Source: Pomacea canaliculata
Taxonomy: Eukaryota; Mollusca; Gastropoda; Architaenioglossa; Ampullariidae
NCBI RefSeq assembly: GCF_003073045.1
Contig: NC_037596.1
Span: 8,883,587 to 8,947,586, forward strand
Length of the DNA stretch: 64,000 bases
Direction: 5' to 3'
The stretch's first letter is position 1. Every line of letters starts with the position of its first letter. Below the pieces are notes generated by a model, which searched no databases, was not told where the DNA came from, and saw only the letters and a program-made list of their open reading frames with translations. The position numbers were made by a program, and so were the translations under genes. This document shows, one piece after another, positions 581 to 47,712 of this stretch.

Positions 581-616
581 CTGATGTTGTTGCAGTTGTG
601 GATGTAGTTATGGAAG
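581..616 (-). CDS. Gene A linker micro-exon after CUB2
   Basis: 36 nt, phase 1-1, encoding SITTSTTATTS between a TTTGCAG acceptor and a GTAAGT donor. It matches the 30-nt beta-type micro-exons of gene B with a short extension. The next exon is outside the window. Confidence 0.7.
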
Positions 617-12600: not shown

Positions 12601-15600
12601 ACACGCTGACGGTGTGGATAGACATGGAAAAGGACTTCGACAAGGTCTGGAAAGATGGACTGAGGTTGAAACTCCAGAAGTGTGGCGTAACCGCTGTATG
12701 TACCAGTGGATCTCTCAATACCTGAAAAACAGGAAGGCCAGAGTCCACGTTGGTGAACATACAGCCGAAAGAAGACGCTGAGAGAAGGAGTTCCTCAAGG
12801 GGGAGTACTCAGTCCTACCCTGTTCCTTGTCTTCATAAACGACATCATCAAGGACCTCCCCCGAAATGTCCAAGGAGCCATCTATGCAGATGAACCTGGT
12901 CCTTTGGTGCACAGAAGAACACCTGACAACTGCCAACTACCGACTCCAAGAGGCGCTTAATGTCCTGCAGGACTGGACGAAAAGGTGGCTTGTCAAAGTC
13001 AACCCCAAAAAGACCACCTACACTATCTTTAGTCTGTCACTAGGGAACAGAAGGCCACTCTGAAGTTCGATGACAGATTCTCCCACTGGAGGACAACCCT
13101 ACCTACCTTGGGGTAACCTTCGATAAGAGACTTACATGGAGCCTCAGACCAAGAAGGTCGAAGCAGAGCCAAGGTGCGACTTGCAATTATGAAGAAGTTG
13201 GCTGGCACGAACTGGGGCGCGGATGACAGAATCCTCAAGAAGCTGTACACCGGAAGGTCAGACCAGTCCTAGAGTATGGCATGACAGCATGGGGCACAGC
13301 AGCAAAATCCAACTTTGAGAAGGTCAGCAAGGTTCAGAACCAAGCAGCCAGACTCATCACTGGAGCCATGAGTCTACGCCCATACAAGAACTGGAGACAA
13401 TCACATGGTTGGAATCACTTGAGGACCGACTGACACAAAGATGCTCGTCCAAGCCGCCAAGTTCAAGAGACTTCCAAATCACCCATGAGAAACAGACTGG
13501 CTCAGCCGACAAAGGGAAGGTTGAAAAGGGGAAGTTTCATCCACCAGGCTAGGATCTTGAACGAAACACCGAGACATCTTGGAACACGACCTCAGAGAGA
13601 TCCCCCTGTGCCGGACAAACCCAGCATGGAATGAAACTGCTTTCCCCCTGATTCACTGCAGCATCCCTGGTGTCAGCAAGAAAGACTCCCAAGACGCTGT
13701 GAAGAAGTCCTTACTATGGAGTATATCCACAACAACTTCCCACAAGATCAATGGACTCACGTGTTCACTGACGGGTCAGCCGAACAAGCCGTGAAGAATG
13801 GTGGCGCCGGAATTTACATCCGGTACCCAGGAGGAAGAGAAGACCGTCTTTCTCTCGCAACCGGCCTCTACTCCACCAACTTTAAGGCTGAAGCAGTTGC
13901 CATTCAGACCGGTGCCACCCACGTTGAAAACAGTCCAGACACCTCCAACAACGTCGTCTTCTTTACGGACGCACTGTCTGTTCTGCAGGCCTTACAGACT
14001 GCCAGAGACAAGAAACTGAACGACCTGTCCACTGCTCTCTCCTCCTTATGCGGAGACTGCACATGTCGTCTTACAGTGGTTCCCTCCGCTGTGGGTTTTT
14101 GGCAACGAAGCCGCAGACACTCTTGCCAAGGAAGATCCAAAAAAGAGCAGCAAGACAGGTCCACCACCTACAGTGAAGTCAAATCCATCATCAAGGCCAA
14201 ACAGCATAACAAGTGGCTGCAGCAGCACCCACGCTTCAACCGAAACGACCCATACTACCTGCTTACAAGAGCTGAGCAGGTCATTATTTTCAGGCTGAGG
14301 ACAGGTCACAACCGTCTCAATCACCACCTTTACACCAAGCTCCGGATCGGCCAGACAGACCAGTGCCCGTGCCAGACAGGCAGTCAGACAACAGCACATC
14401 TACTGCAAGAATGTCCCATGCACGAAGAACTCAGGCACCGCATTTGGACCGATGAGACGCCAGTATTGAGGAAGCTACACGGCAGCCTGGAGGACCTGCG
14501 GCGCACAGCATCATTTGTGCAGGAGGCAGGCGTGTCCATTTGAGTGAACGACGAAGAAGAAGAAGAAGAGGGGGACCTAAGGCATAAGTGACGACAAGAT
14601 GTGTAGACTTACGATTACGAGAAAGGTTTCATACACTACAAGGTGTGTCTAATTACATGATGTCAGATCCTTTCAACGAAGATTGAATAGAAAACCTTTG
14701 GCAGAAGATTAAACGGTGGCCTCTAGTTAATAAGAAAGTGTAAAACACAAGCTGCTATGGACAGTTTGACATCATATAGTTCTCGATCACATCAGAGCAA
14801 TGGCACTTAGTTACAAGTCCGCCTAAGATAAGGACATACTATTCACCGTCCTATGGACACGGGACTCGGGTAACATCTCCAGGTGCTGGTAACCATGGTG
14901 ATGACAGGCCTGCTGGTGAGCGAAAAGGAGTACACACTGGTGAAAGGGATGGTATTACTCGAGCTAAGTGGTGTATGAATATTCAAGGTGTAGAGTGAGC
15001 GACGTGAACGCATGTGTAGTGTACGACATGTGCATAGTTAAAGATAGGTTTTATAACTCACTAGATAACTTGATTAGTGGTAAGGGGTTAGCTTACGGGA
15101 CATCCTAAGGCCTAGACAATAAGACAAAATCTTGAATTTCTTCACTCATAGGCTTATTTTTTTTCCTGTCATTGTATTCTAAGCTCTCCGCTTTTTTTAT
15201 ACTTAATAAGTACTTTGTTTCCACCAATTTGCGTTGAGTTAGTTATTGGAAGTGCGCTAGAGGCTTGAGTCGTTAATAGGTTTTAATTAGCAATTAGTGG
15301 AGGTTCATCGAGCACAAGCTTATGTCAGGGTGGAGGAGTAGTCGAGATTTTAGTCTCTGTCCATCACACGTACCTAGACGCAATATGATTGCGGCAGAGT
15401 GCGTATATGTTTGTCTGTGAATTATTGTGTGGAAAAAATTGTTTATTTGCACTTATGTTCCCGCTGCTTAACATACACTTTAGGGAGCTCGTATGTGCTT
15501 GTATATTAAAGTTAAGAGTTATTTTGCGTGGTGTGTCACATGACTCACCTGATGTGTCATCAGCTGCAGAGCTGATCTTGGAAACTAAAGAAATAAAATG

Positions 15601-16283
15601 GGCAAGGTTATCAAGTGATAAAAAAAAGTTTTAAGAACACAGATACCTTCCAGTTAATATGCTGACTGAAGTTACCAACAAGCAAACCATGAAACACCGG
15701 AAAAGCGTTTTAATTTATATTAAAGTCACTAGTGTATAGAGATTGTTGTGTGTTTATCATCTGAGAGAAACTTCTTGGTTTCAATAAACAACAGTTAATT
15801 TGTATCAATAATTTATGTTCCTTATAGATTATGTAACTTTTTGTTTATGTAATCATTTCGATTTTTTTCACATATTAATCGAGCTCTTCCTGGTAATTTC
15901 TTGTATGTTTATTTACTTCATCCATCAATTTGTTTGTGGCAGTTCTAATCATATATCGTTTTCTTTAGTCAATATTTTCTGAAACAAAAGCAAAAATACC
16001 TGTAGGACTAGCAAAAGTGTAGAAGACAGAAACGCACGTAAACTCTAATTAGTCAGCTAAATAGATATATATTAAGAACTTTTCGAAATTAGAGTTTTAA
16101 AATAAACCCCAAACTGTTTTTCTTTAGATAAGTCCTCCACTAGAAATATGCCTAATCTGACTAGATAGTTGAAATAATATTAGTCTTGTAGCCTTAGTGA
16201 GTAAGAGAACAAAAAGGACGATACTTACTCAGAGAAAACATGACCAAGGAGGCCGCAAGAGCAATGGCGGTAAACGCCATCAT
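581..16283 (-). CDS. Gene A: secreted or membrane protein with two CUB domains and Thr/Ser linkers (spliced, 3' end outside window)
   Basis: Ten exons chain on the minus strand with consensus splice sites: 16283-16229 (signal peptide), 15584-15549, 12224-12140, 10308-10199, 9873-9706, 8956-8924, 5682-5598, 3948-3842, 3217-3044, 616-581. The phases agree throughout: 1-1 linkers, CUB exons 1-2, 2-1, 1-1. The product has a hydrophobic 18-residue leader, a short Ser-rich linker, CUB1, a Pro/Thr linker, CUB2 and a second Thr/Ser linker. Both CUB domains show the SPNFPSNY motif, a C-W pair after the first intron, and TYNSSG near the end. CUB domains are extracellular binding or protease-associated modules; this protein has no visible catalytic domain, so a binding role is inferred. 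The last exon ends in phase 1 with a good donor, so the gene continues beyond base 1. Gene B is a paralogue. Confidence 0.78.
1163..1351 (+). pseudogene. FLYWCH-like zinc finger fragment of the MULE
   Basis: The frame encodes KCPVTLVTAENEIVKQLSAH followed by NHE, which fits the second half of a FLYWCH finger (C-P-x-x-x followed by H-N-H). The first half is not readable in this frame. It lies upstream of the transposase core, as in many MULE proteins. Confidence 0.55.
1499..2436 (+). pseudogene. MULE transposase, frameshifted remnant
   Basis: The open part (1499-1888) contains FLLYDSMWTSNNSRFLVFGD, then WFADGTFKVVPSLFYQLHTI and a VLYCLLQDKSSATYNRM block, the hallmark of the MULE transposase domain (DDE catalytic core; the Asp of the ADGTF motif is a catalytic residue). 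A stop and frame changes follow. DFEKAAM at about 1895 and NNSVEGWHHAL at about 2266 continue the domain in other frames. It cannot make a full protein as it stands. Confidence 0.8.
3044..3217 (-). CDS. Gene A CUB2, third exon
   Basis: 174 nt, phase 1-1, acceptor GCCGTAG, donor GTCAGT. It encodes ITGTLGAPVTYNSSG and GFNLTYEVYLK, the C-terminal CUB strands, with no Cys. Confidence 0.82.
3402..3712. mobile_element. Tigger-like MITE
   Basis: A 311-bp element with inverted ends CAGGTAGTCCTCGACTTACG (left) and the complement of CGAGGACTACCTG (right), and TA at the right flank. It is an internally deleted relative of the element at 1-316. It lies in the intron between the second and third exons of gene A CUB2. 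Confidence 0.75.
3842..3948 (-). CDS. Gene A CUB2, second exon
   Basis: 107 nt, phase 2-1, encoding SHLDCWRIILAP, IKVTVWNASL and the end motif DYLKIYDG. It is one codon shorter than the two paralogous exons (110 nt). Confidence 0.8.
4000..5590. other. Intron of gene A within CUB2 (exon 1 to exon 2 of the domain)
   Basis: No coding signal recognised. 4240-4560 resembles 10690-10990 in the matching intron of CUB1, and 5220-5300 resembles about 11345-11410 and 26110-26200. This shows that introns were duplicated together with the exons. Confidence 0.6.
5598..5682 (-). CDS. Gene A CUB2, first exon
   Basis: 85 nt, phase 1-2, encoding CDAVLPTILSLGKVYYLTSP followed by NFPSNYS. It is the closest match to the equivalent exons at 12224 and 26479. 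Confidence 0.8.
5700..8920. other. Gene A intron upstream of CUB2
   Basis: The part up to about 6030 is shared with the flanks of the other two CUB cassettes. 6540-6910 is similar to 34690-34985 in gene B. Apart from the MITE at 7509-8048 I see no gene here. Confidence 0.55.
7509..8048. mobile_element. Tc1/mariner-Tigger type MITE, 540 bp
   Basis: Near-perfect inverted ends CAGTGATACCTCGGTTCTCG and its complement, with TA on both sides, mark an element inserted at TA. The interior has a second set of GGTCGAGAACC/TTCGAGAACC repeats and a CAGTA run near 7750. No transposase is readable. Confidence 0.85.
8924..8956 (-). CDS. Gene A linker micro-exon between CUB1 and CUB2
   Basis: 33 nt, phase 1-1, acceptor TTTCTAG, donor GTGAGT, encoding PPSTPTVATS. 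It is of the same family as the stalk micro-exons of gene B and probably O-glycosylated. Confidence 0.72.
9706..9873 (-). CDS. Gene A CUB1, third exon
   Basis: 168 nt, phase 1-1, acceptor CTGCAG, donor GTCAGT. It encodes the C-terminal CUB strands with APITYNSSGP and GFFLTYQVYL. It has no Cys, so this CUB keeps only the first of the two canonical disulfides. Confidence 0.8.
10199..10308 (-). CDS. Gene A CUB1, second exon
   Basis: 110 nt, phase 2-1. It encodes NNLNCWQLIV, then VIKVTVWFAA and the ISDG end, the central CUB strands with the partner Cys. The usual aromatic-Asp-Tyr of the 'YDYL-iyDG' motif is degenerate here (DGDILIISDG), unlike in gene B. Confidence 0.8.
12140..12224 (-). CDS. 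Gene A CUB1, first exon
   Basis: 85 nt, acceptor CAG, donor GTAAGT, entering in phase 1 and leaving in phase 2. It encodes the N-terminal CUB strands with the first Cys (CNAAHP) and the motif MTSPNFPSNYP. It aligns with 5682-5598 and 26479-26395, both also 85 nt. Confidence 0.8.
12560..13560 (+). pseudogene. LINE reverse transcriptase remnant
   Basis: Readable blocks include WIDMEKDFDKVW, QYLKNRKARVHV, GVPQGGVLSPTLFLVFINDI and AIYAD, followed by a base gain that destroys the second catalytic Asp of the YADD motif in frame. A stop precedes the GVPQG block. These are the standard RT fingers, palm and thumb blocks of non-LTR elements. The gene is dead through several frameshifts. Confidence 0.82.
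13716..14543 (+). pseudogene. LINE RNase H domain and C-terminal zinc motif
   Basis: The frame opens with HVFTDGSAEQAVKNGGAGIY, then KAEAVAIQ and VFFTDALSVLQAL: the D-E-D residues of an RNase H fold. Near 14085 the frame slips, because GNEAADTLAKE, the fourth catalytic block, is in another frame. The end has CPCQTGSQTTAHLLQECPMH, a Cys/His motif common at the C-terminus of such elements. Confidence 0.82.
15549..15584 (-). CDS. Gene A exon 2: 36-nt linker micro-exon
   Basis: A TTTAG acceptor and GTGAGT donor flank 36 nt, phase 1-1, encoding SKISSAADDTS. It is the only stalk micro-exon seen before CUB1 in this gene; gene B has eleven in the same position. Confidence 0.65.
16229..16283 (-). CDS. 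Gene A exon 1: signal peptide
   Basis: ATG at 16283 (a second in-frame ATG follows at once) opens 18 codons, MMAFTAIALAASLVMFSL, a typical hydrophobic leader, and ends in phase 1 before a GTAAGT donor. The gene B leader exon at 35446-35392 is nearly identical and has the same length, 55 nt. Confidence 0.8.
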
Positions 16284-16619
16284 CTTCAATCAACAGACAG
16301 GAAACAGAGCTGTAGTCTCACCTGTTGTGTCAGTCCTCACGTCAATGTTGTCCTATATTACCTGTAGGATAAACCTAGAAAATCAAAGTTCTTTTCTTAG
16401 GAAATCTCTAAACGTTGCTATCAATTCTCTGTTATCTCATCGGTTCTCTCCACCGGTCTAATGGAGAACAGTATGTACGGTATGTGGCTGACATCAAATA
16501 AGAGAACATTCTAGAAGCTTAATGCCTGGTATGATCTCACTGCATTACGCAGTCTCTTTTAAAGCTCCTATGACAGTTTGTTTTCTTGTTGTCTTGGCAC
16601 GACCAAACACACATAACAG

Positions 16620-20434: not shown

Positions 20435-20632
20435 AGGTGTCAATAGAGTACACAGTGTATGCAGTGTCAAATAAGTACACAGTGTACACAGTGTCAACAG
20501 AGTACACAGTGCACACAGTGTCAATAGAGTATACAGTGTACACAGTGTCAACAGAGTACACAGTGTATACAGTGTCAGTAGAGTACACAGTTTACAAAGA
20601 GTACACAGTGTATACAGTGTCAATAAAGTACA
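20435..20632. repeat. 27-bp minisatellite, about 7 copies
   Basis: The unit is close to GTCAATAGAGTACACAGTGT plus ATACAGT. Because 27 is divisible by 3, the array is open in frames on both strands (a nine-residue Tyr/Thr/Val repeat). I regard it as non-coding. Confidence 0.85.
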
Positions 20633-20649
20633 CAATGCTCTACATCCAA

Positions 20650-22536: not shown

Positions 22537-22591
<55 letters not shown>
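22537..22591. repeat. (GT)n microsatellite
   Basis: Uninterrupted GT dinucleotides just 3' of the end of gene B. Confidence 0.95.
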
Positions 22592-22593
<2 letters not shown>

Positions 22594-22640: not shown

Positions 22641-22750
22641 CTACAGTACAGAACCATTGTGTCCAATCTGTATCATCATGGCCACAAATACCGAAGCAAT
22701 AACACAGAGAATGATGTTGTCAGTGAGGATACCAGTGGCTGAATTATAGC
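22641..22750 (-). CDS. Gene B last exon: hydrophobic C-terminus and stop
   Basis: Acceptor TTATTTCCAG, then GYNSATGILTD, a 16-residue hydrophobic stretch and QIGHNGSVL before TAG. It is either a transmembrane helix with a minimal tail or a GPI-attachment signal; the polar last residues favour the former. Confidence 0.72.
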
Positions 22751-25700
22751 CTGGAAATAAAAACGATTTTGAATATTAAAATTAATGCAAAATATTTTTG
22801 GAAATAAAACAGAATGTCACACACTAATACTTGGTAAGATATATCACCTGTAGACCTACCCTAGTTTATATAAATATTATACACATGGCAATAGATTACC
22901 AACACTACTTGCGAAGAAGATTTAAATTAAAGAACACTGCTGGAAAAAATACCTCTATTTACTTCATAACTTTAAACAAATACTAATGGAAATAACTAAC
23001 ATATCTATACTTAAACCATACAAGGTTTTACAAAATATATGTACACAAATAAAGAAATGTCGCAGAAATATGCTATGTCTAATAGGATTTCTTTGAAATC
23101 GAGAGCTAAGAAAAAATAGAAGTAAAGAGAATAAATATCCCTACAAGTATTTATCAATGAATCGATGGATTGATCTACGTATGTACTTACAGAAAAATCG
23201 TGCTAGGAGATTTATTATCAAAACAATTAGTAGAAGATAAATATACAATTAACATTGAATATTTTGAAAAGAAAAAAAGCCTATTGACCGAATAATATGA
23301 ATAGCATTTACAGTAATGTCCCCTTCTTTACCTGATGGTGTTGTCGTTATCGTTCCTGGTGAGACATAAGAAAGAAATATTTATGGCATATTTATTGAAG
23401 AATACAAATGAAAATAAATTGCTATATTTATGACAAGTTTTTCTTATTGACAATTTTAGAAATTTACCACAGAGTGACTGATTAATAGGAGCTGGTGTGC
23501 AGGTGGTGTGGGGAATAGCTGTAGGTGTTGGTGTGCACGTGTTCTGAGGAATGGCTGATCTGTAAGTGCGCAGAAGATGCTTGCACTTTGCTGGATGAGT
23601 TGTTAATGTCACAGGCAGAACGCATTTTACTATTTGCATGTTTGAGGGTACAGTAAAGTTTGAAATGCTAATGATAAAAAGGTAATGATACACTTATATT
23701 TTTGCTGTTTATTACTTAGAAATGCACTTTCACTGTCATGTTTGAATTTGTCTTTTGTAATTTGCATCTTCCATAAACCAAAAGTAATAAACTATATTTA
23801 TGACATTTTGATTGCAAAAAGATTTTTTTCAAAATGCAATTGCTTAAAGTAGTGAGTGTGGTTGTGAAAGAATAAAAGGAATTAAACATTTACAATAAAC
23901 AAAGCATGATAAACATGTGCTTGTTTAACTATTCTACATCAGCAAAACTAAAAGAACTTTGAGAACGCTGACTCGGAGGAAAGAAATTACTGTTAATACC
24001 ATTACAATAAAAGTAGAAGACATGTACGAGAAACTTACTGCACTTGGGGCTATTGGTTGTAGCCGCCTCAGTACTCGTGACTTGAAAACAAAACACGAAA
24101 GATAAAATTCTTGTAGCTTCATGCTCGTAATGTGTTACCGTCAGTCATTTACCGTTTAACATCAACAATACATTTAAATCTATTCGAATTCTTTTGTTAT
24201 TCATTAAAATATATATTGGAAATTATTGTCACACGCCCTGTTTCCGTAAGTTGGACGAACCGTATCACCTTGTTCCAGCTCCAAGTTTTTTAATCTTTCA
24301 TCCCAGTAGACATCATACTTTTGATGTCTTGGATAGCTATTTTGACACTTCCTTGGTTTTGAGAGTGGCGCAGCCTCCCATATACATTCTTTAAAGTTGG
24401 CCAGTTTTTCATCAGTCTGCTGACCACTTTATTCGCAAATTCCCGACCGTTGTCGGACTGTAAAATTGATGGTACACCAAGAAATGTTAATATCTCTATC
24501 ATTTGTAGTCTACTTCTTCAGCTTTCTTTGTTTTCAGAGGTCTAAGAACCACAAAGTTGGTCAAATGACCTGAGTACGCCATTACAAACTTGTCTTTCTT
24601 GTCGGGATTGGACTAACAGTCAATTAGATTCACCTGACAGCGGGAATGGAAATAACAAAATACTACAGGCTTCACTATAATGCCAGTTTTATACCATTTT
24701 GTTTCTTCTGGTATGGCTAACAAAAGTGAATATAAAATTTAATGCTATAATAAGCAACGTTCTTTGTATTCCGGAACATTCTCTTTTCATGGCGGTATGC
24801 TTATTCTACACTCTAACAAATGTACCTAGTCTGAATGTGTGTGTAAGAGAGGAAGGGGAAGTGTATCTGATAAGTGTCATATGAGTGAGGGGGTTAAGCA
24901 TGAGTATAACTGTGTGAGTGTACGAGGTGTAGTAGTAATCTCTTCAGTTGATTATGTATCTTTTACGACCAGACATAGACAATAAAGATATATTGTATTG
25001 TGTATATATATAAAATCTTTATTCCTCCCTGTCTTTCTCTCTGTCTTCTCTCCCTCTCTTTCTACATATATATAAAGTAAAGCAGGTGTTGAAGGAATCA
25101 GGCATATACAAGACTATTCACACTTCTACAGGGCAAGTGATATCCATAATAAAATATATTGATTCATGTTTTGATGTACGTATGTACTTACAGAAAAAAT
25201 ATGCTCAGAGAATTACTATCAAGACGATTGGTAAACAAAAGATTTACATTAATGAATTTTAAAAGAAAATTAACTCAGAAGCAACCCCGACAGCACGAGA
25301 CAAAAATAGAAGACGGAGCAGGTACAAAATATTAATGATTACTGTAACTTCAACATCAACAGTACGGATATTAAAGTATAGACCTGTAACTCACAGGTCA
25401 ATGAAAAGTACTGACCAGATGTGGATGCAGACTGCGGAAGACTGACCTCGTAGGTCAGATTGAAGCCTGAGTTGACCTTATTGTAGTCGGTGTGAAAGTG
25501 GAGGAGCAAGTAGTGTCCTGAACTGTTGTAGGAGGCCGGCGATGCTAAGGTGCCGCTGATCCCAGCAAGTAAGTTGGATGAATTCGACATACCTATGGCA
25601 GACATGTCTTTTAAATCACATGTAAAACATTGGTATATGAACAGATTGTATTGAATTATCTTCACAAGTCTAAAGACACAAGTATCTAATTTACTTTAAT

Positions 25701-28700
25701 CCTAAAAACGCTGTAAAAAATAAACATTATTCTAAGTAAGCAAACACCAGAGGATCAATTGATACAATTACCGATAACAATTCTATATAATTTATATGAT
25801 AATTTATCTTTACTAGAGAGAGTACAATGAAATATAAAATAAACCAAATCCTAAGATAATGTCATAGTGTGAACATAAAGTGTCTACCATCATATATATT
25901 AAGGTAGTCGTATCTTTGCTCGAAAGCGGCGTACAGAACAGTCACTTTGATGACAGCACCGTTAGGGGCGATGAGCAGTCGCCAGCAGTCGAGGTTACTG
26001 TAAGAGATTACCAATAATGTATTTACAACATTAAAAATATGTCATTGCTTTTTGTTGTTATTACAATGTAAATTATTTCCCTTTGAGGGAGTTGCCCGTC
26101 TATTAGACGTTGGCCCATCTCATGCTGTGCTCCAGGCTCACCATCCAAACTTTCTTTAGAACATTGGGATAACTGACTGATACACTCTCCAGCGCCTTGA
26201 ACTGTTTTCACGGAATCATTTCGTTTTGCAAATCTTGTGAGCTTATTGAAAATAATATAAATAAGTTTAAGTTTGTAATATCAATATGTTTCTGGTGTCG
26301 CGAAGACCTTACACTTAGCTTTAAGATTAGGGAGACGATATATGTATGTAATACAAGTGAATATAATAATGGTCTTTTCAAAACATCAACTCACTTGTCA
26401 TAATCAGACGGGTAGTTTGGAGAAGTCAGGTAGCGGACTTCCCCAGCAGAGAGAGTCGTAGTGTTGGTAACATCACACACTGCACAGAAAAATCAAGGCA
26501 TTATCAAATAGTTGTTATAAAAACAAACTATTGCTACAAAGGTTGCTTAGAATCAACAAAGATAAAACAATTTAAACAACTATTAAAACAATCATTAAAT
26601 TACCAGTCATTTTGAGTCTTACGACCTTTGTGTAATTATCTGGAAAAGGGGATTGAAGGAACCTAAGGTTTCGTTTTTATTTCTATAATAAATGCAACCT
26701 AGAAAAATATTAGTTGTAAAAGTGTCACATAAATCACAGTGGCATCATGTGAAACGAACTAATGTTATTGAGCAGGCCAGTGGCCCATTCGAACGAGTAA
26801 GTGGTTTTACAGGTAAAAAAAAAATTAGAAAGTAAACATTATTATAGGTAATAATATATATATTTAAATTTATATATATTTTTATGAAAACAAGTATACC
26901 AAATATACCAAAATTAATCATATTTCTTTAGAATGAGCGCTACAAAGACATATGCAGACACAATAGTTATCCCGACATGGATTTATCAATTAATCCATAC
27001 ATTTATATATATATGTACTTTCAGAAATGAGGTTCGCAGAGGTACTATGAAACGATTCTTAGATAAGTGTTTAACTATCAATATTTTTTTTTTAAAGAAA
27101 ACAATCGTAGACTGTAAGAGTGACAGTTAAAGTGATGTCCATTGTTTACCTGATGGCGATGTCGTTATCGTTGCTGATGAGAACTTCTGAGCTAAAAATA
27201 AAGCAGTTATCGATAGGTTTAAGGAGGATCTCATCTCATAAACAATATTTATTACATATTTTTTAAAGAATACTAATGAAAAAATAACTATTTCCCAGCA
27301 AACACGCAAGATTCGGCCAAGCTTGGCTCAGAGTGTTTGCTGGGTTATTATATCTCTATTTTGTTATAAAATAAAATATGAAGTAGTGTTGTGGAAGAAT
27401 GAAAAAAATACAAATTGTAAAGAATTAATTCACAAGAAACATCACCAAAATGTACATCAGCAAAATAACAGCAGCTTGAGAACGTTTACTCAAAGGGAAA
27501 TAATTAAACTCGACAATACCCGTACAGAAAGGGGAGACGACTTGTACGAGAAACTTACTGAATTGGATCGCATAGGTTGTCGCTGCTTCAGTAGTCGTGA
27601 CTAGAAAACAAAAAACGAGAGGTTACATTTTCATAGGTTCATACTCGTAATCTTTGTCACCTTCAATCATTTGTCGTTTAGCAGCATCAATACATCTTAC
27701 ATATAATCCAGCTTTTTGTTAGTTGCTAAAATATATAATTAAAACTATTATCTTTCCCTCTGCATGTTCTTATGTGCACTGACAATAAAAGAAGTAAAGC
27801 ATTTACTGCGATGCCCCTTATATACATGATAATGTTGTCATTGTTGTGGAGTTGAATGACTGACCGAAAAGAAAGTATAAAAGTTTTCAGAAGGGGGATC
27901 CAAACAAGTGAAAAGAAAAAAAATGAGCTAAGATGGAGCTGTGCTCCCTTCAGGTCTTGCTAACCACGTGGAAGATCTGGCAAAGCCAAAGTGTTCCTTT
28001 GCTTCCTTTCTGCCGATCTTGTACCGTGAAGTTAGGACCATCCTACTTCAGTCAAAACCACAACTTGTCCACTGGACCCAGTTCCCATCCCACTACTAGT
28101 AGACTGTCTCGACTTCCTACTCCCTCTCCTCACAGAAATAGTAAATGCTAGCTTGTCCTCCGGCATTCTCCCAACTGCCTTAAAAATAGCCTTAGTGAAA
28201 ACAAAGTTAAACGATCCTACCATGGACATTAATGACATAAACAGTTATCGCCCAGTGTAGAATTTTCCAGAGTCCTTTTTCCTGAGAAAATTAAATACAG
28301 CACTGACACCCAAATACTGTAGTCAGAAAATCGTGAAACAACATAGAAGGGTGGACATTAATGCACCTATCCAGGGCTTCTGCTAAGGCTAAATTCTTTG
28401 GGGTCCCAGGGACCCATTCTTCAGATTTTTGAGGGGTCCCTGTTCTTCGCCCAAATTTGAAGGGGACCCCATTGACGAAAATTGAAGGGGTCCTCCGAAC
28501 TTTTAATGCGTACTGTACGCAATTTTTTGCGTAAGCAGAAGCCCTGCCTATCATCTTGTCGATGATCCGAACTCGGACAGCAGCTTATGAGCTTTTTTTA
28601 CATCTTTGTAATTGAAGAAATTAAAAAATGAAAAATAAACACAGCGTAAAGTATTTTTTATGAGAAATTAAAAACGAAAGCCAGAACCCTAAATGAAGAT

Positions 28701-31700
28701 TAAGTAACATACCTGATGTAGCTACAGTTGTGGATGCTGGTGTCAAAACTAGAGATAAAAATTGGACAAATATTAAGTCTTAATAAGCAGGAACATTACA
28801 CATCGAATTCATATAGATATATAGATAAAAGGCTTAAAAAGAACAGGTACATGACCAATGCCATATATAGATATGTGTGAATTTAGTGTCTACTGAATTA
28901 TGCATATTACACATCTAATTTATATATGTCTATAAAACAGGTTTAAAATACAGGCACATGACTATATTTATATATGTAAAATGGGTGTGTAGATTTTTTA
29001 AAGACAGTATAAATTATATTACAGTGAGGTCCCCTTACTTGAAGACGTATTCATTGCAGATAGGAATGTCTGATCTAAACACAAAAAACAGATATCAAAA
29101 GGTTCACATAAAAAAGTATTTTATTTCAGTTACAGCGTACTTTATTCCTTACTTATCTTCTAACATCTACTAAAGTACTAAACGAACTCAACACACCGAT
29201 TCTATCATAGTTATTCAGCTTAGAAGGAACAGGAATCAAGGTGCTACTAACATTCCACACTTTGTAAAGTTACCATTAATTAAAATGTGCAGCGAAACAT
29301 TTTTCCCAAAACACTGGGAAACATGATAGACTAAAATATAGACAAAAATTTTCGTGCCCCTTTTTTTAAACTGCTTGAAACAGTGTTTTATGATTTTTTT
29401 ACCTGTCTTTATTGTCGAGAAAATGTAGAATATGACAAATGAAGCAGCTTAAAAGATATTTCGATCATCAGTAGTTACAAACAGTTAGACTCAAGAGAAA
29501 TTAATTAACTTACTTGATGTTGTTGCAGTTGTAGTTGTGGAAGCTGCAAATGAAAATTGTCAAACTAGGAAGACAACAGGATGTTAAGATTACATACAAT
29601 TGTCTGAGTTTATTAAACACTATCACTAAACCGATTTGCCACTTAACATCAACAATACCTCTAAATATAATCAAACATTTGACTTATTTATTAATATATA
29701 TATATATTTGAAATTATTGTCACACGTACTGCATACTTGTAATGAAAAATAAAAAAATACATAAAGTCATAGATCAATGTATATTTCTGGGTCTAGATTA
29801 ACGAGCAATTAGTACAAACGTCTACGTCAGGGATAGGAACCCTTACAGTGCCACCCAAAGAGGTCGTCTTTTGTTACTGCTGTTCATTTTCTTGGCCTGA
29901 ACTTCTAGATTTTATTCCAATTGTCTCTTACTTTCTACTGCACTCTCAATGTTGAAGCAAATAGTGCCTCAAATATGAACCCCATGACCTTCCGTTTCCT
30001 CATCGTCTTCCTCTTGTTTAGCCTGTCCTCAGATGGCATAAACGATTTGTCCGAACTGTTGGATTGAATGGTCGCCGCTGCTTTCCTTGGACAGACACAA
30101 CACGTGGCAGAAGGGGTCTTCACTTTTCATCTTTTCGCTGTTAGTTTCGTTACCTTCAACATGGACTGAATTATCGCCAGTATTTTGTGCAGTTACCTCT
30201 GTCTCCTCTACTGGATGGTCAGCCAAAGAAAGCTTCGTAAAGTCTTCTCTGAATCCCAGAGTGAAAGGCTCTGTTTTCCATAAGCTGGACGAACTGCATC
30301 CCATCATTCCAGCACTAAGATTTTCATCTTGCATCCCAGTAGACATCATACTCCAACCCCTTTTCTTCGTTTTCTTCACTAGCTGCTCATCCGTTCTGAC
30401 ATCCAGTACAAACTGTCCGTGTTGTGTTTTCATATCTTTACTGGCACCTGCCCTGATTATTTCTCTGAACTGATGTTCCTTTACGTCCCAGCCAGACACC
30501 AATGATTATTATGATTATGATTATAATGATTATGACTATGATTATTATTATTATGAATATTGTTATTATTATGAATAGTAGTATTATGAATGGTATGGGT
30601 TGTATTATGAGTATTGTGAGTAGTATTATTATGAGTATTATTATGTTTATTCTAAGCATTATTATTACTAGTGAATCCGTCCTATCGTGGTGGTGATAAT
30701 GCGCCTTACAATTATTAGTAATGGTACTTAATTACAAAGTATAAAAATATAAAGTTATAGATCAGTGTATACTTGAAGGTCTAAATACTAATTCATCTCT
30801 CTTTTTGTCTCTGACTTTTTTTCTCACACACACTAACCAGAATACACACACAAATATTACGTATAAAGAAACATATTTTACAAGTTATATATATACATAC
30901 ACAACATGTCAATGCAGATCTCATTTGTACATTCCTATTAACTTGTTTCTCAGGAAACAGATACATACTAAGACAAATCAGATTTCTTAGCACTACAAAA
31001 ACATTCATGCAATCAGAATAACTATTCAGACATGGATTGTTCAAGTGATCTGTTCGTTTACCTGTGTATAAACTTACAGGGAAATGCCAAAATTAAATTA
31101 GCACTTACACCCAAATACAGTAGTAAGAAAATCGTGAAACAACACAGATAGAAGGGTGGACATTAATGCACCTATCATCTTGTCGATGTTCCGGACACCG
31201 ACAGCAGCTTGTGAGCTTTATTTACATCTTTATAATTAAAGAAATGAAAACACGAAAAATAAACACAGCGTACAAATATTTTTATGAGAAATTTAATGCG
31301 AAAGCCAGAACCCTAAATGAAGATCAAGTAACATACCTGATGTAGCTACAGTTGTGGATGCTGGTGTCAAAACTAGAGATAAAAATTCGACAAATATTAA
31401 ACGTGTTAATAACAAGGCACATTACACATCTAATTTATATAGATATATAGATAACAGGCTTAAAAAGAACAGGTACATAACCAATGCCATATATAGATAT
31501 GTGTGAATATAGTGTCTACTGAATTATGCATATTACACATCTAATTTATATATGTCTATAAAACAGGTTTAAAATACAGGCACATGACTATATTTATATA
31601 TGTAAAATGGGTGTGTAATAAGAAGGGCATGGTACAAATTTAATTTATTTATACATGCATATAAAACAGGCTAGAAAACAACAGGAACATGACTACTCTC

Positions 31701-34700
31701 AGATACATAAATAAGTGTCTAATAAAACCGGCATACTATACATCTAATAAGTACATGTATATCTAAATAAGGCTTAAAAACAGGTACATAACTTGTCCCA
31801 TACATATATGTAGATGTGTAAAATGAGTGTTTCATCAAACACGCATATTGCACATTTAATATATATATATAACAGATTGAAAAAGAAACGATACATAATT
31901 GGATTAATATATATATATATATGTAAAATAAGTCTCTACTAAAACAAGCCTATACCAAGCTTGTTTATATTTCTTTAAAGCAAGCTATGCAAAATAAAAA
32001 GTTTGAGAGAATAAGTGTAAAGCTATTGATTGATGTATTGATCTGCTTGTTAACTTTCAAAAAAATGTGCTTGGAAAAATACAAACGATTCGAAATGACA
32101 AACAAATGTCCTAAATTAAAAAATTTTTAAAGACAGTATAAATTATAGTATTACAGTGAGGTCCCCTTACTTGAAGATGTTGTCATTACAGATAGGAATG
32201 TCTGATCTAAACACAAAAAACAGTTATCAAAAGGTTCACATAAAAAAGTATTTTATTTGAGTTACAGCGTACTTTATTCCTGACTTATCTTCTAACATCT
32301 ACTAAACAAACTCAACACACCGATTCTATCATAGTTATTCAGCTTAGAAGGAACAGGAATCAAGGTGCTACTAACATTCCACACTTTGTAAAGTTACCAT
32401 TAATTAAAATGTGCAGCGAAACATTTTTCCCCAAAACACTGGGAAACAGGATAGACTAAAATATAGACAACAATGCTCGTGCCCCTTTTTTTAAACTGCT
32501 TGAAACAGTGTTTTATGATTTTTTTACCTGTCTTTATTGTCGAGAAAATGTAGAATATGACAAATGAAGCAGCTGAAAAGATATTTCGATCATCAGTAGT
32601 TAAAAACAGTTAGACTCAAGAGAAATTAATTAACTTACTTGATGTTGTTGCAGTTGTAGTTGTGGAAGCTGCAAATGAAAATTGTAAAACTAGGAAGACA
32701 ACAGGATGTTAAGATTACATACAATTGTGTGCGTTTATTAAACACTGCCACTAAACCGATTTGCCGCTTAACATCAACAATACCTCTAAATATAATCAAA
32801 CATTTTGGTTATTTATTAATATATATATTTGAAATTATTATCACACGTACTGCATAGATGTAATGAAAAATAAAAAAAATACATAAAGTTATAGATCCAT
32901 GTAATTAAACATACCTGATGTAGCTACAGTTGTGGATGCTGGTGGCAAAACTAGAGATAAAAATTGGACAAATATTATGTGTGTTAATAAGCAGGCACAT
33001 TACACATCTAATTTATATAGATAGATAACAGGCTTAAAAAGAACAGGTACATAACCAATGCCATATATAGATATGTGTGAATTTAGTGTCTACTGAATTA
33101 TGTATATTACACATTTAAGGTATATATATATAAATCAGGCTTGAAAACAGGTACATAACTTGTCCCATAGATATATGTAGATGTGTAAAATGTGTGTTTC
33201 ATAAAACAGGCATTTTGCACATTTAATATATATATATAACAGATTGAAAAAGAAACGATACATAATTGCATTAATATATATGTAAAATAAGTCTCTACTA
33301 AAAAAAGGCATCTACCAAGCTTGTTTACTATACAAACGATTCGAAAATGACAAACAAGTGTACTAAATTAAAGATGTTTTAAAGACAGTATAAATTATAA
33401 TATTACAGTGAGGTCCCTTACTTGAAGATGTTGTCATTTCAAATAGTAATGGCGGATCTAAACACAAAAAAACAGATATCAAAAAGGTTCACATAAAAAA
33501 GTATTTTATTTGAGTTACAGCGCACTTTATGCCTTACTTATCTTCTAACATCTACTAAACAAACGCAACACACCGATTCTATCATAGTTATTCAGCTTAG
33601 AAGAAACATGAATCAAGGTGCTACTAACATTCCACACTTTGTAAAGTTACCATTAATTATAATGTGCAGCGAAACATTTTTCCCCAAAACTGGGAAAACA
33701 GGATAGACTAAAACATAGACAAAAATGCTCGTGCAACAATGAAGCAGCTTAAAAGATATTTCGATCATCAGTAGTTACAAACAGTTAGACTCAAGAGAAA
33801 TTAATTAACTTACCAAATGTTGTGTCAGCTGTAGTTGTGGAAGCTGCAAATGAAAATTGTCAAACTAGGAAGACAACAGGATGTTAAGATTACATACAAA
33901 TTTCTGCGTTTATTAAACACTACCACTAAACCGATTTGCCGCTTAACATCAACAATACCTCTAAATATAATCAAACATTTTGCTTATTTATTAATATATA
34001 TGTATTTGAAATTATTGTGACACGTACTGCATACAAACCACAGCACACACAAACATTACTTATAATGAAACAGATATTTTACAAGTTTTATATATATACA
34101 ACATGTCAATGCAGATCTGATTTGTACATATATATTAACTTGTGTCTAAGGAAACAGATACATACTAAGCCGAATCAGATTTCTTAGCACTACAAAAACA
34201 TTTATGCAATCAGATGACCTTTGTACGCCATTACAAACTTGTCTTTCTTGTCGGCATTGGACTAACAGTCAATTAGATTCACCTGACAGCGGGAATGGAA
34301 ATAACAAAATACCACAGGCTTCACTGTAATCCCAGTTTTATACCATTTTGTTTCTTCTGGTATGACTAACAAAAGTGAATACAAATTTTAATGTCATAAT
34401 GAGCAATGTTCTTTGTATTTCGGAATATTCTCTTTTAATGGCGGTAAGCTTATTCTATACTCTGCCAGTTTGATATTTAGGTTAAGTATAGAATATCTAG
34501 GAAATGTGTAAAATACGATTTATGTTATACTTTGATGTCCCACTTTCTGCATTCTATACATAGCCAAGGCATTCTATAGAATGGGGTTTTAAATATTGCC
34601 GATGATATATAATCTCCCTATTCCTCACTTTCTCTCTTTTCTCTCCCTCTCTATAATGATATAAAGTAAAGCTGGTGTTGAAGGAAGCAGTCTATTAACT

Positions 34701-35446
34701 GATCTTGTTGCTGTTTAAACATCTCACGTTTATGTTACTGTTAGAACGAAGGCGAAGATAACTAGTCCTGGAATTCTCTGAGACCTGATCGAGTCTTGGG
34801 TTAAGCTCTATGACCACCTATTGTCATAATGGCTTGTAGTATATATTGTAAATCAAGATCCGGGACATACAGCGGTAGAGACGGGAGGCTGCACCGGAAA
34901 CGTGATTTACTACACTGCGCCATGAAGTCAAGTTGTTGTCAGACCTACAGGAGAAGCGAAGATACGCGCCTGTTTCTATGTTCGGAAAATTTAATTATTT
35001 ACAAGGTGTCTCTAGTTACATGATGTCAGATCCTTTCAACGACGATTTAATAGAAAAGCTTTGGCAGAAGATTAAACAGGCGGCCTCTTCCTGGTAATTT
35101 CCTGTAGGCATATTTACTTCACCGATCAATTTTCCGTGACAGTTCTAATCATAAATTGTTTCCTTTAATCAATATTTTCTAAAAGAAAAGCAAAAAATAT
35201 GATATGCTAATTAGTGAGCTAAATATATATTTTAAAAAGATTTTTTTTTAAATTAAAGTTTTAAAAAACCCCTAAACTGTTTTTCTTGAGATGTCTTCCA
35301 CACGAAATATGCCTTATCTGACTAGATAGTTGAAATAACATTAGTCTGAAGTAGCCTTGGTGAGTAAGAGAACAAAAAGGGCGATACTTACTCTGAGAAA
35401 ACATGACTATGGAGGCCACAAGAGCAATCGCGGTAAACGCCATCAT
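22641..35446 (-). CDS. Gene B: complete mucin-stalked CUB membrane protein, 19 exons
   Basis: Nineteen exons chain on the minus strand with GT-AG sites and matching phases; their lengths sum to 1,116 nt, exactly 371 codons plus TAG. In order: signal peptide (35446-35392), eleven stalk micro-exons of 30-42 nt between 33843 and 27150, three CUB exons (26479-25416), then exons at 24080-24039, 23590-23468, 23355-23332 and the last at 22750-22641. The stalk of about 130 residues is dominated by Thr, Ser and Ala and is probably O-glycosylated. The CUB domain has one Cys pair. The C-terminal exon has a hydrophobic stretch NIILCVIASVFVAMMI and a nine-residue polar tail, so it is a membrane anchor or possibly a GPI signal. 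A cell-surface recognition or mucosal role is inferred. Every stalk exon is phase 1-1 and could be skipped in frame. Confidence 0.8.
23332..23355 (-). CDS. Gene B 24-nt micro-exon
   Basis: 24 nt, phase 1-1, acceptor TCTCACCAG, donor GTAAAG; encodes TITTTPS. The smallest exon of the model; it joins in frame to the C-terminal exon. Confidence 0.62.
23468..23590 (-). CDS. Gene B Thr/Pro/Cys-rich exon
   Basis: 123 nt, phase 1-1, acceptor TCATCCAG, donor GTAAAT. It encodes KCKHLLRTYRSAIPQN then two TCTPxP repeats and NQSLC. Four Cys residues and an N-glycosylation site are visible; no known domain recognised. The acceptor is the weakest of the model. Confidence 0.6.
24039..24080 (-). CDS. Gene B linker micro-exon delta-2
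   Basis: 42 nt, phase 1-1, acceptor TTTTCAAG, donor GTAAGT; encodes TSTEAATTNSPKC. It parallels delta-1 before the CUB domain, so the exon pair delta/epsilon flanks the CUB on both sides. Confidence 0.68.
24280..24800 (-). pseudogene. KRBA2-like integrase fragment (Ginger-type transposon), copy 1
   Basis: 24502-24290 encodes FLGVPSILQSDNGREFANKV and RHSQNQGSVKIAIQDIKSMM, the integrase core around the second catalytic Asp. About 24720-24530 encodes HSRCQVNLID, a stop, then KDKFVMAYSGHLTNFVVLRP, the first catalytic segment. The region between is shortened. It lies in a gene B intron. Confidence 0.75.
25416..25592 (-). CDS. Gene B CUB, third exon
   Basis: 177 nt, phase 1-1; encodes SGTLASPASYNSSG, a histidine-containing LLLHFHTDY strand and GFNLTYEVSL. 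No Cys. Confidence 0.83.
25888..25997 (-). CDS. Gene B CUB, second exon
   Basis: 110 nt, phase 2-1; encodes NNLDCWRLLIAPNGAVIKVT and YDYLNIYDG. It keeps the acidic/aromatic residues seen in calcium-binding CUB domains, whereas gene A CUB1 does not. Confidence 0.85.
26395..26479 (-). CDS. Gene B CUB, first exon
   Basis: 85 nt, phase 1-2; encodes CDVTNTTTLSAGEVRYLTSP followed by NYPSDYD, the canonical start of a CUB domain. Confidence 0.85.
27150..27191 (-). CDS. Gene B stalk micro-exon epsilon-1
   Basis: 42 nt, phase 1-1; encodes QKFSSATITTSPS. The 24-nt exon at 23355-23332 is a shorter relative. Confidence 0.7.
27559..27600 (-). CDS. Gene B stalk micro-exon delta-1
   Basis: 42 nt, phase 1-1, acceptor TTTCTAG, donor GTAAGT; encodes TTTEAATTYAIQF. 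A relative lies after the CUB domain at 24080-24039. Confidence 0.7.
28030..28295 (+). pseudogene. LINE reverse transcriptase fragment
   Basis: Read on the plus strand: EIVNASLSSGILPTALKIAL, then VKTKLND and INSYRPV before a stop. This is the N-terminal RT block of CR1/Jockey-like LINEs (…KxALVxPxLKK…NNYRPVS). It ends exactly where the sequence shared with 31100 begins. Confidence 0.75.
28372..28546. mobile_element. MITE, 175 bp, with CAGGGCTTCTGC ends
   Basis: Ends CAGGGCTTCTGCTAAGGC and GCGTAAGCAGAAGCCCTG are inverted. CCTATC is present on both sides (28366-28371, 28547-28552). The paralogous segment at 31166-31180 reads straight through CACCTATCATCTTG without an insertion. Confidence 0.82.
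28713..28748 (-). CDS. Gene B stalk micro-exon alpha-1
   Basis: 36 nt, phase 1-1; encodes LTPASTTVATS. Confidence 0.72.
29039..29074 (-). CDS. Gene B stalk micro-exon gamma-1
   Basis: 36 nt, phase 1-1; encodes QTFLSAMNTSS, with a possible N-glycosylation site (NTS) not present in the other gamma copies. Confidence 0.68.
29514..29543 (-). CDS. Gene B stalk micro-exon beta-1
   Basis: 30 nt, phase 1-1; encodes STTTTATTS. Confidence 0.72.
29935..30500 (-). pseudogene. KRBA2-like integrase C-terminal fragment, copy 2
   Basis: On the minus strand, MMSTGMQDENL is followed, in another frame, by FVQLMENRAFHSGIQRRLYE, matching the end of KRBA2-like integrases. Further down CHVLCLSKESSGDHS looks like the Cys-containing C-terminus. 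It lies between stalk modules 1 and 2 of gene B. Confidence 0.65.
30502..30675. repeat. (ATT/ATG)n low-complexity repeat
   Basis: Trinucleotide-like ATT/ATG sequence next to the integrase relic; frames through it are not coding. Confidence 0.85.
31337..31372 (-). CDS. Gene B stalk micro-exon alpha-2
   Basis: 36 nt, phase 1-1; encodes LTPASTTVATS, identical to alpha-1. Confidence 0.72.
32171..32206 (-). CDS. Gene B stalk micro-exon gamma-2
   Basis: 36 nt, phase 1-1; encodes QTFLSVMTTSS. Confidence 0.68.
32639..32668 (-). CDS. Gene B stalk micro-exon beta-2
   Basis: 30 nt, phase 1-1; encodes STTTTATTS. Identical to beta-1 in sequence and splice sites. Confidence 0.72.
32915..32950 (-). CDS. 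Gene B stalk micro-exon alpha-3
   Basis: 36 nt, phase 1-1, acceptor TCTCTAG, donor GTATGT; encodes LPPASTTVATS. Confidence 0.72.
33422..33457 (-). CDS. Gene B stalk micro-exon gamma-3
   Basis: 36 nt, phase 1-1, acceptor TTTAG, donor GTAAGG; encodes PPLLFEMTTSS. Its 5' half differs from gamma-1 and gamma-2. Confidence 0.65.
33814..33843 (-). CDS. Gene B stalk micro-exon beta-3
   Basis: 30 nt, phase 1-1, acceptor TTTGCAG, donor GTAAGT; encodes STTTADTTF. It is the most diverged of the three beta copies. Confidence 0.7.
34210..34460 (-). pseudogene. KRBA2-like integrase fragment, copy 3
   Basis: Nucleotide copy of 24560-24790 (the first integrase segment), more than 90% similar by eye. It sits between the signal-peptide exon and the first stalk micro-exon of gene B. 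Confidence 0.7.
35392..35446 (-). CDS. Gene B exon 1: signal peptide
   Basis: 55 nt from ATG at 35446: MMAFTAIALVASIVMFSQ, then a GTAAGT donor in phase 1. It differs from the gene A leader by a few residues. Confidence 0.82.
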
Positions 35447-46865: not shown

Positions 46866-47000
46866 TGTTTTCAGGAAACTGAAGGACTGCTTGTCGTCAC
46901 CTCCATTGCTGGCATTTCCAGACTACGCCCAGTCGTTTGAACTGCTCACCGACACCAGCATGCACGGGTTGGGAGCAGTGTTGTACTAGGTGCAAGACAA
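46866..47000 (+). pseudogene. Ty3/gypsy RNase H start, displaced fragment
   Basis: FRKLKDCLSSPPLLAFPDYA, then QSFELLTDTSMHGLGAVLY and a stop: the conserved start of the Ty3 RNase H domain with the first catalytic Asp. In intact elements this follows the RT domain; here it precedes it. Confidence 0.75.
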
Positions 47001-47014
47001 TCAGAAACGGGTGG

Positions 47015-47540
47015 TGTGGATTCTATGAATACAATCGCATGGCGATGGGGCTGGCAAATGCACCGGCCACATATCAACGCCTCATGGAAGAGTGTTTGGG
47101 GGACCTACATCTCCAAATATGCCTGGTGTTTCTCGATGACATCATTGTGTTTTCCAGTACATTTGATGAGCATCTGGAAAGAGTGGAGAGAGTGCTAGAC
47201 AGACTACGAGATTGTGGAATGAAATTGCACCCCAAGAAGTACACATTCGCACAGGATCGAGTTAAATACCTGGGACATATCGTGTCAGCGGCTGGTGTCG
47301 AGACAGATCCGGAAAAATGCGAGAAAGTAAGAAACTGGCCAGTGCCCAGGACACATGACTTTGTACGACAGTTTCTGGGATTCGTAGATTATTATAGGCG
47401 TTTCGTGAGACGGTTTTCGGCAATCGCCAAGCCCCTAAACGACTTGCTACCTGACGTGTTGAAAGGGAAAAAAAAAAAAAGAGGTCGGACCGGTACGTCG
47501 GAGAAGAATACGGGGGTGAAAGCACATTTCACTGCGGCGT
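47015..47540 (+). pseudogene. Ty3/gypsy reverse transcriptase fragment
   Basis: YNRMAMGLANAPATYQRLME, then VFLDDIIVFSSTFDEHL with the catalytic FLDD, LHPKKYTFAQDRVKYLGHIV and FLGFVDYYRRFVRRFS: the palm and thumb of a Ty3-type RT. The frame is open for about 160 codons but lacks the fingers and ends in an A-rich run near 47470. It is not a complete pol. Confidence 0.85.
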
Positions 47541-47712
47541 AAGGGGAAGGTGAGAGCGAACCCCTTTAGTTAACAGACATCCTTGTTGTGCAGTGAAGAG
47601 GTTTCTCGGTGTGAAGTAAGTGTCGCAATAAGATACAGCCGTTGGTAGGTCAAAGGTAGAGGCTTCATTGTAGAGACACATCAGTTAGATTTTGTTAGAT
47701 AGTTTCAACAAC

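Follow-up and report, generated by a model that had tools for sequence, protein, structure and literature searches.

We describe a gene of Pomacea canaliculata, a member of a cluster of CUB genes, whose stalk appears to have been built by segmental duplication of a three-exon module (A-B-C) and whose cassette exons are likely skipped in ways that tune both stalk length and the number of sequons. The gene, termed gene A, lies on the minus strand of the analysed stretch of DNA (the window; 64,000 nt, all from P. canaliculata). Its protein would run from a signal peptide through an O-glycan-type Thr/Ser stalk, one CUB domain and a short linker to a hydrophobic C-terminus. One module has been duplicated repeatedly, exons and introns together. 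All stalk exons are symmetric (phase 1-1) and can therefore be duplicated or skipped without disturbing the frame. Skipping of cassette exons, for which the B exons give the best support, would alter stalk length and switch N-glycosylation sequons on or off.

Structure of gene A

Gene A is a single-CUB gene with a micro-exon stalk, comprising exons 1–19 at 35446–22641. The model was rebuilt exactly as first proposed, with 19 exons summing to 1116 nt, or 372 codons including the stop, and no internal stops. This total needs an exon 17 of 123 nt; a 92-nt version breaks the frame and was rejected. Exon 17 occurs in neither database isoform and is unsupported, and its first ~55 nt have no match in the neighbouring paralog, gene B.

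The rebuilt model bears out the eleven minus-strand micro-exons (in order, 30, 36, 36, 30, 36, 36, 30, 36, 36, 42 and 42 nt, from 33843 to 27150), each with an AG acceptor, a GT donor and phase 1-1, and the database isoforms that match it further support the presence of the stalk. Thr or Ser occupies 68 of the 130 stalk residues in the full model, a richness of the mucin type. The earlier note's description of the peptides as only Thr/Ser/Ala-rich is too strong, given that the B exons encode DPPLLFEMTTSS or NQTFLSVMTTSS. With 14 exons treated as optional, all 16384 subsets stay in frame and yield 14336 distinct proteins without an internal stop, so the claim that any subset could be skipped or repeated in frame holds for skipping; as is well established, repetition is impossible by ordinary cis-splicing and requires duplication of the DNA.

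The hydrophobic N-terminus MMAFTAIALVASIVMFSQ of exon 1 is likely a signal peptide. Exons 13–15 match the Pfam CUB profile (PF00431, E=5.9e-15, score 56 bits, gathering cutoff 21.4, with one extra G at an exon border in the query), and CUB is the sole Pfam domain in the database proteins P0002 (E=2.6e-15) and P0003 (E=2.3e-15). Among the PDB matches (33 sequences), cubilin and neuropilin-2 chains rank best. CUB domains typically carry four conserved cysteines, and some are without one cysteine pair; membership here rests on the profile because the domain, as read from the model protein, has two cysteines and not four. The CUB domain may bind a ligand, and the receptor role named in the earlier note is putative. 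A hydrophobic 17-mer at residues 348–364 (mean hydropathy 2.78) is followed by at most seven residues, GHNGSVL, without Lys or Arg. This C-terminus is ambiguous between a GPI signal and a transmembrane anchor, and the protein is probably membrane-anchored.

Table 1 Features of gene A and of gene B within the window.
Feature	Position	Strand	Description
Exon 1	35392..35446	-	ATG and hydrophobic N-terminus MMAFTAIALVASIVMFSQ; phase-1 end; found in P0002 and P0003
Exon 2	33814..33843	-	Type A, module 1, 30 nt
Exon 3	33422..33457	-	Type B, module 1, 36 nt
Exon 4	32915..32950	-	Type C, module 1, 36 nt
Exon 5	32639..32668	-	Type A, module 2, 30 nt; same sequence as exon 8
Exon 6	32171..32206	-	Type B, module 2, 36 nt; N-Q-T sequon spans junction; absent from X2 and X3
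Exon 7	31337..31372	-	Type C, module 2, 36 nt; same sequence as exon 10
Exon 8	29514..29543	-	Type A, module 3, 30 nt
Exon 9	29039..29074	-	Type B, module 3, 36 nt; two sequons (N-Q-T, N-T-S); in X3, not X2
Exon 10	28713..28748	-	Type C, module 3, 36 nt
Exon 11	27559..27600	-	Diverged type A, 42 nt; shares upstream-intron homology with type A
Exon 12	27150..27191	-	Diverged type B, 42 nt
Exon 13	26395..26479	-	CUB part 1; Pfam CUB E=5.9e-15 across exons 13–15
Exon 14	25888..25997	-	CUB part 2
Exon 15	25416..25592	-	CUB part 3
Exon 16	24039..24080	-	Exon 11-like micro-exon, 42 nt; in X2 and X3
Exon 17	23468..23590	-	123 nt, open; absent from X2 and X3; weak part of the model
Exon 18	23332..23355	-	24-nt micro-exon, type B-related, 5′ end shorter
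Exon 19	22641..22750	-	Hydrophobic C-terminal segment and stop; either a GPI signal or a membrane anchor with a short tail
Array of three A-B-C modules	28713..33843	-	Duplicated, introns included; aligned pieces about 90–94% identical
Gene B exon 1 (taken as)	16229..16283	-	Copy of the signal-peptide exon
Gene B type A micro-exon	581..616	-	36 nt, not 30; other gene B stalk exons sit on C7 beyond the window's left edge

Module duplication and the neighbouring gene

The stalk array consists of a three-exon module duplicated with its introns, and self-BLAST aligns the copies in pieces of about 90–94% identity that take in the introns. Within each of types A, B and C, the similarity among exons with their flanks exceeds that of intron null pieces, and exons 11 and 16 are linked to type A via the upstream intron (scores 37–103 against a null maximum of 26–30). 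Near 27855, scores of 20–30 against a null maximum of 26–27 give no ground for claiming a fourth, decayed B exon.

The stalk of gene B, the neighbour of gene A, is shorter and made of the same exon types; the two genes also share the C-terminus. Gene B's copy of exon 1 aligns at 16219–16303 (94% over the 85 nt compared). As joined here, gene B contains six stalk micro-exons in addition to its three CUBs; chosen by homology, all six are AG/GT-bordered, open and multiples of three. No separate database protein for gene B is found among 10 matches (about 280–890 aa) from 7999 candidates sharing most words.

These two genes bear on a rival reading in which segmental duplication left the array as a transient by-product, its extra exons spliced noisily and its length differences without function; we regard this reading as possible if somewhat doubtful. 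Such an origin fits the type B exon with its flanks being reached at three places in the genome, all in gene A (a search that did not reach the diverged copy in gene B). It also fits the rates of change, as neither the modules nor the micro-exons paired with gene B change significantly less than introns. When the three modules of gene A are compared, exons and introns show no significant gap in divergence (12/102 against 102/590, p=0.19; second module pair, 15/102 against 106/584, p=0.48; third, 4/102 against 58/592, p=0.06), and the three micro-exons paired between the genes, at 6/108 against 166/1563 intron sites, are not significantly different (p=0.10). This last result lowers our confidence in duplication with cassette skipping as the explanation, and purifying selection on the micro-exons is not claimed from divergence alone. 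Against a functionless by-product, the length changes between the genes keep the frame: the A exon has 36 nt in gene B and 30 in gene A, the B exon 42 and 36, a difference of 6 nt in each, and gap runs in the paired introns are multiples of three in just 4 of 19. The six homology-picked stalk exons of gene B, all open and symmetric, argue in the same direction.

Across the whole coding sequence, the two genes differ at 21/590 sites against 166/1563 intron sites (p=2.8e-8), a low divergence due to the CUB exons (8/372, p=8e-9). Modules 1 and 2 are separated by 12 nonsynonymous changes and one synonymous change (72.2 and 29.8 sites); positive selection on the stalk exons was dropped as a candidate (Fisher p=0.10).

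Most CUB matches in the genome (26 of 31, from 150 of 194 first-look candidates scored) fall on C7 at 8.88–9.37 Mb. The 60 kb at C7 9.108–9.168 Mb hold many CUB exons, and stalk-exon queries there give partial matches of 20–28 nt only; the module is not claimed elsewhere in the cluster on the basis of that interval. The Pomacea multi-CUB protein P0004 belongs to the same CUB family as gene A and differs from it in having four CUB stretches (Pfam) and a short Thr-rich end.

Predicted isoforms and exon skipping

The suggestion that the gene would be unannotated or annotated in fragments finds no support: the gene is annotated in two predicted NCBI models, isoforms X2 (P0002, 306 aa) and X3 (P0003, 296 aa), which equal subsets of the model exons letter for letter. 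X2 consists of exons 1–5, 7, 8, 10–16, 18 and 19, skipping 6, 9 and 17, the unique solution among the subsets tested. X3 has two equal solutions, the model without exons 6–8 and 17 or without 5–7 and 17. Together the isoforms represent 10 of the 11 micro-exons (exon 6 is missing), and both keep the genomic order, with stalk losses confined to B exons or one module's worth, a narrower pattern than the free interchange proposed in the earlier note. That one gene could produce many stalk forms is supported as far as two predicted isoforms that differ by whole micro-exons with the frame kept.

Skipping of B exons removes N-glycosylation sequons, of which the stalk has three in the full model, two in X3 and none in X2; N-Q-T arises only where the exon spliced ahead of exon 6 or 9 ends in A. 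The stalk may thus be glycosylated to differing degrees.

Were the stalk exons constitutive, the stalk would be long and fixed, and the predicted isoforms would be short-read artefacts on near-identical copies. We consider this unlikely. Short reads cannot place exons 5 and 8 or 7 and 10 because each pair is identical, and for the same reason X3 may be a mapping artefact; its junction (exon 5 or 8 to 9) has the same sequence as the constitutive 8–9 junction, and its two exon solutions are equally good. X2 speaks against a fixed stalk, as it twice joins an A exon straight to a C exon (ATTS-ILTP), a junction that copy confusion cannot yield because always-included exons 6 and 9 would leave none.

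Cassette skipping of B exons would account for X2, and isoform choice may be real and regulated. If it is regulated, splicing would set the number of N-glycans on a surface protein of an invasive snail. We are still more hesitant about a tunable-length, immune-type surface protein, for which haemocytes or epithelia of a single snail would pick B exons, so setting stalk length and N-glycan number, and module number would vary among individuals; if true, splicing and recombination would both act on the symmetric A-B-C unit. P. canaliculata hosts parasites.

That the micro-exons are chance open intervals, with the CUB part alone as the true gene, is suggested by how short and low in complexity the individual exons are, and is most improbable in view of the exact database isoforms, the matching exon types of gene B and a shuffle control. 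For this control we counted open phase-1 AG|30/36/42|GT intervals with at least 50% T/S/A over the 6.8 kb at 33900–27100 (minus strand). The real sequence has 11, against a mean of 0.22 and a maximum of 2 in 100 dinucleotide shuffles. Of these 11, ten belong to the model and one (28123) does not, and exon 3 misses the threshold. Nine of the eleven micro-exons in the model represent a single three-exon module present three times, so the eleven are not independent observations.

Relation to known systems

Arrays of micro-exons are known from chicken BG tails and schistosome MEGs; what looks new is the CUB-linked form described here, which would be extracellular and tune glycans. Among the literature matches listed (titles and abstract starts), none concerns gene A or mollusc CUB/micro-exon stalks. 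Gene A offers a compact, young example of a repeat-encoded stalk growing by single symmetric exon modules, with introns still alike enough to trace the history of duplication and a neighbour whose different stalk allows comparison.

Chicken BG genes (butyrophilin family) pair a domain protein with a region of many short exons whose first codon is split, the preceding exon deciding which residue it encodes, and exon number varies between members of the multigene family (PMC4046983, PMC5938342). Gene A resembles them in all these points. The BG exons are of 21 nt (a few of 18 or 24) and code for coiled-coil heptads in the cytoplasmic part of an Ig-V protein, whereas those of gene A are of 24–42 nt, Thr/Ser-rich, predicted to be extracellular, of three types and part of a CUB protein. 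Pfam detects no domain besides CUB in P0002 and P0003, and the BG combination of Ig-V and 21-nt heptad exons is absent.

Schistosome MEGs have 10–20 very short exons, the vast majority of 15 nt, in arrays mostly divisible by three, with long introns between them, an N-terminal signal peptide and alternative splicing that generates diversity (PMC10526429). Gene A shares this architecture with longer exons, 13 of its 19 being of 24–42 nt and all 13 multiples of three. The motif FL..F(X6)Wp(K/H/R) that follows the MEG signal peptide in the same source (PMC10526429) is missing by eye from gene A, where the N-terminal segment is followed by TSTTTADTTFDPP. Gene A further differs in its snail origin, CUB domain and duplicated modules, and we claim a likeness of architecture and no sequence relation.

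DMBT1 is assigned to the SRCR superfamily (PMC3100851). Pfam finds no SRCR domains in P0002 or P0003, a difference from DMBT1. The NCBI labels are poor, reading 'DMBT1-like' (X3's label is DMBT1) and 'GPI-anchored protein pfl2'. DMBT1 contains CUB domains, a feature it has in common with gene A.

Results

Gene A, a minus-strand CUB gene with a micro-exon stalk, could be rebuilt exactly as the earlier note had modelled it: 19 exons running from 35446 to 22641 and totalling 1116 nt, or 372 codons including the stop, in a single open frame with AG/GT at every internal border. The eleven micro-exons proposed for its stalk were all found in succession as exons 2–12, each 30, 36 or 42 nt long and in phase 1 at both start and end. 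Between 33900 and 27100, 11 such intervals encode at least half Thr, Ser or Ala. Ten of these belong to the model and one does not, while exon 3 lies under the threshold. In 100 dinucleotide shuffles, such intervals averaged 0.22 and never exceeded 2. The observed count overstates independence, as nine of the 11 model exons are copies inside one repeat. By self-BLAST, exons 2–4, 5–7 and 8–10 (modules 1–3) and their intron sequence are repeats of a single unit present three times, with aligned pieces ~90–94% identical; each module comprises exons of type A (30 nt), B (36 nt) and C (36 nt).

Searching proteins with the CUB portion of the model (residues 148–270) returned three matches among 250 candidates, all from a 30.92-Mb contig of Pomacea canaliculata; isoform X1 was not among the three. 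The database entries P0002 (isoform X2, 306 aa) and P0003 (isoform X3, 296 aa; the entry represents two member sequences, of which one was matched) are letter-for-letter exon subsets of the model, with 16384 subsets tested. The gene, previously suspected to be unannotated or fragmentary, is therefore annotated, as X2 and X3. X2 equals the model without exons 6, 9 and 17, and X3 the model without 6, 7, 8 and 17 or, equally, without 5, 6, 7 and 17. Exon 17 is thus absent from both, and 10 of the 11 micro-exons are present in at least one isoform. Confusion between module copies can produce the X3 junction; it cannot produce the A-to-C junction of X2.

The neighbouring three-CUB gene on the same strand, gene B, starts with a signal-peptide exon at 16283 and ends 8.6 kb beyond the left edge of the window. 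The exon taken as its head (16229–16283, minus strand) is a second copy of the signal-peptide exon, with 94% identity across the 85 nt that were aligned. As joined, gene B contains three CUB domains, six stalk micro-exons (a count that in 16.2–12.2 kb covers homologous types) and the C-terminus of gene A, in 508 codons including the stop; it has no internal stop, a frame that is open partly by construction, the exons having been chosen by homology. The same homology comparison found no counterparts of exons 16 and 17. A tandem acceptor (CAGCAG, 9871–9876, minus strand) at one CUB exon of gene B keeps the frame with either AG.

Type A exons are 36 nt in gene B versus 30 in gene A, and type B exons 42 versus 36, both differing by 6; all six gene B stalk exons, picked by homology, are open and symmetric, and intron gap runs between the genes are multiples of 3 in 4 of 19 cases. 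Seven paired exons differ at 21/590 sites and four paired introns at 166/1563 (p=2.8e-8), the low exon divergence being carried by the CUB exons (8/372, p=8e-9). Neither the three paired micro-exons alone (6/108, p=0.10) nor exon 19 alone (7/110, p=0.19) differs significantly from introns, and the modules within gene A likewise show no significant difference in divergence between exons and introns. Because micro-exon divergence alone is not significant, support for the micro-exons as coding sequence comes from the database isoforms, the chance control and lengths that preserve the frame rather than from divergence.

Exons were typed by local scores, taken with their flanks, against intron pieces of gene A as null. 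Exons 2, 5 and 8 are type A, exons 3, 6, 9, 12 and 18 type B, and exons 4, 7 and 10 type C. Exons 3, 6 and 9 are linked to 12 and 18 mainly via the gene B copy (scores 54–88, null maximum 36); direct scores to exon 12 are 20–37 against null maxima of 23–32, the exon 3/12 pair being at background level. Types A and C separate incompletely, with shared flank scores of 30–39 within gene A and 42–57 with the gene B A exon. Exons 11 and 16 score 140 against each other, and the introns preceding them align with those preceding type A (37–103 across the copies in both genes, null maximum 26–30), in alignments that exclude the exons themselves. From these scores and intron matches, all 13 micro-exons would therefore be derivable from a single A-B-C module, less firmly for 11, 12, 16 and 18. 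A genome search with a B exon and its flanks gave three places, all in gene A, and did not reach the diverged gene B copy.

As every stalk exon of gene A is symmetric, skipping keeps the frame, as had been proposed. Which residue forms at the type B junction depends on the base that ends the preceding exon (A gives Asn, G gives Asp), and N-Q-T arises at exons 6 and 9 when that exon ends in A. With all exons included, the stalk is 130 residues long (68 Thr or Ser) and carries three sequons; the X3 stalk has 96 residues and two sequons, and the X2 stalk 106 and none. Skipping of B exons may tune both stalk length and N-glycan number on the CUB protein. The C-terminus, a hydrophobic segment followed by GHNGSVL with no Lys or Arg, is compatible with a tail-less anchor as well as with a GPI signal, which makes the earlier label of receptor a guess.

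Chicken BG genes encode their tails in 21-nt exons whose first codons are split (PMC4046983, PMC5938342), and schistosome MEGs carry short-exon arrays with lengths mostly divisible by three (PMC10526429). Both work like the gene A array, but gene A lacks defining features of each family. Among the titles listed by literature searches, none concerned gene A.

The searched genome was a 440-Mb assembly of 24 contigs, with the window at G000:C7:8883587–8947586. Exon by exon, the CUB query hit 31 genome places, 26 of them on C7 at 8.876–9.365 Mb (150 of 194 candidates scored), forming a tandem CUB cluster. The open frame with the Ig V-set match is possibly another surface or secreted gene.

Other features of the window
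Feature	Position	Strand	Evidence
CUB exons of the tandem cluster	12224–3044	-	CUB query
Open frame, Ig V-set match after hydrophobic start	51006–51515	+	Pfam, E=3e-07
Retroelement remnants: reverse transcriptase (E=8e-22), RNase H match just under curated cutoff	46883–47542, 13635–14543	+	Pfam
27-nt and 54-nt tandem repeat, within open frames of both strands	20437–20634	both	Repeat and open-frame scan

In gene A intron 15/16, the stretch 24250–24600 (minus strand) resembles an integrase fragment by eye (QSDNGREFANKVV). A perfect (GT)n array of 27.5 copies (22538–22592) lies ~50 nt beyond the gene A stop codon, likely in the 3′ UTR.
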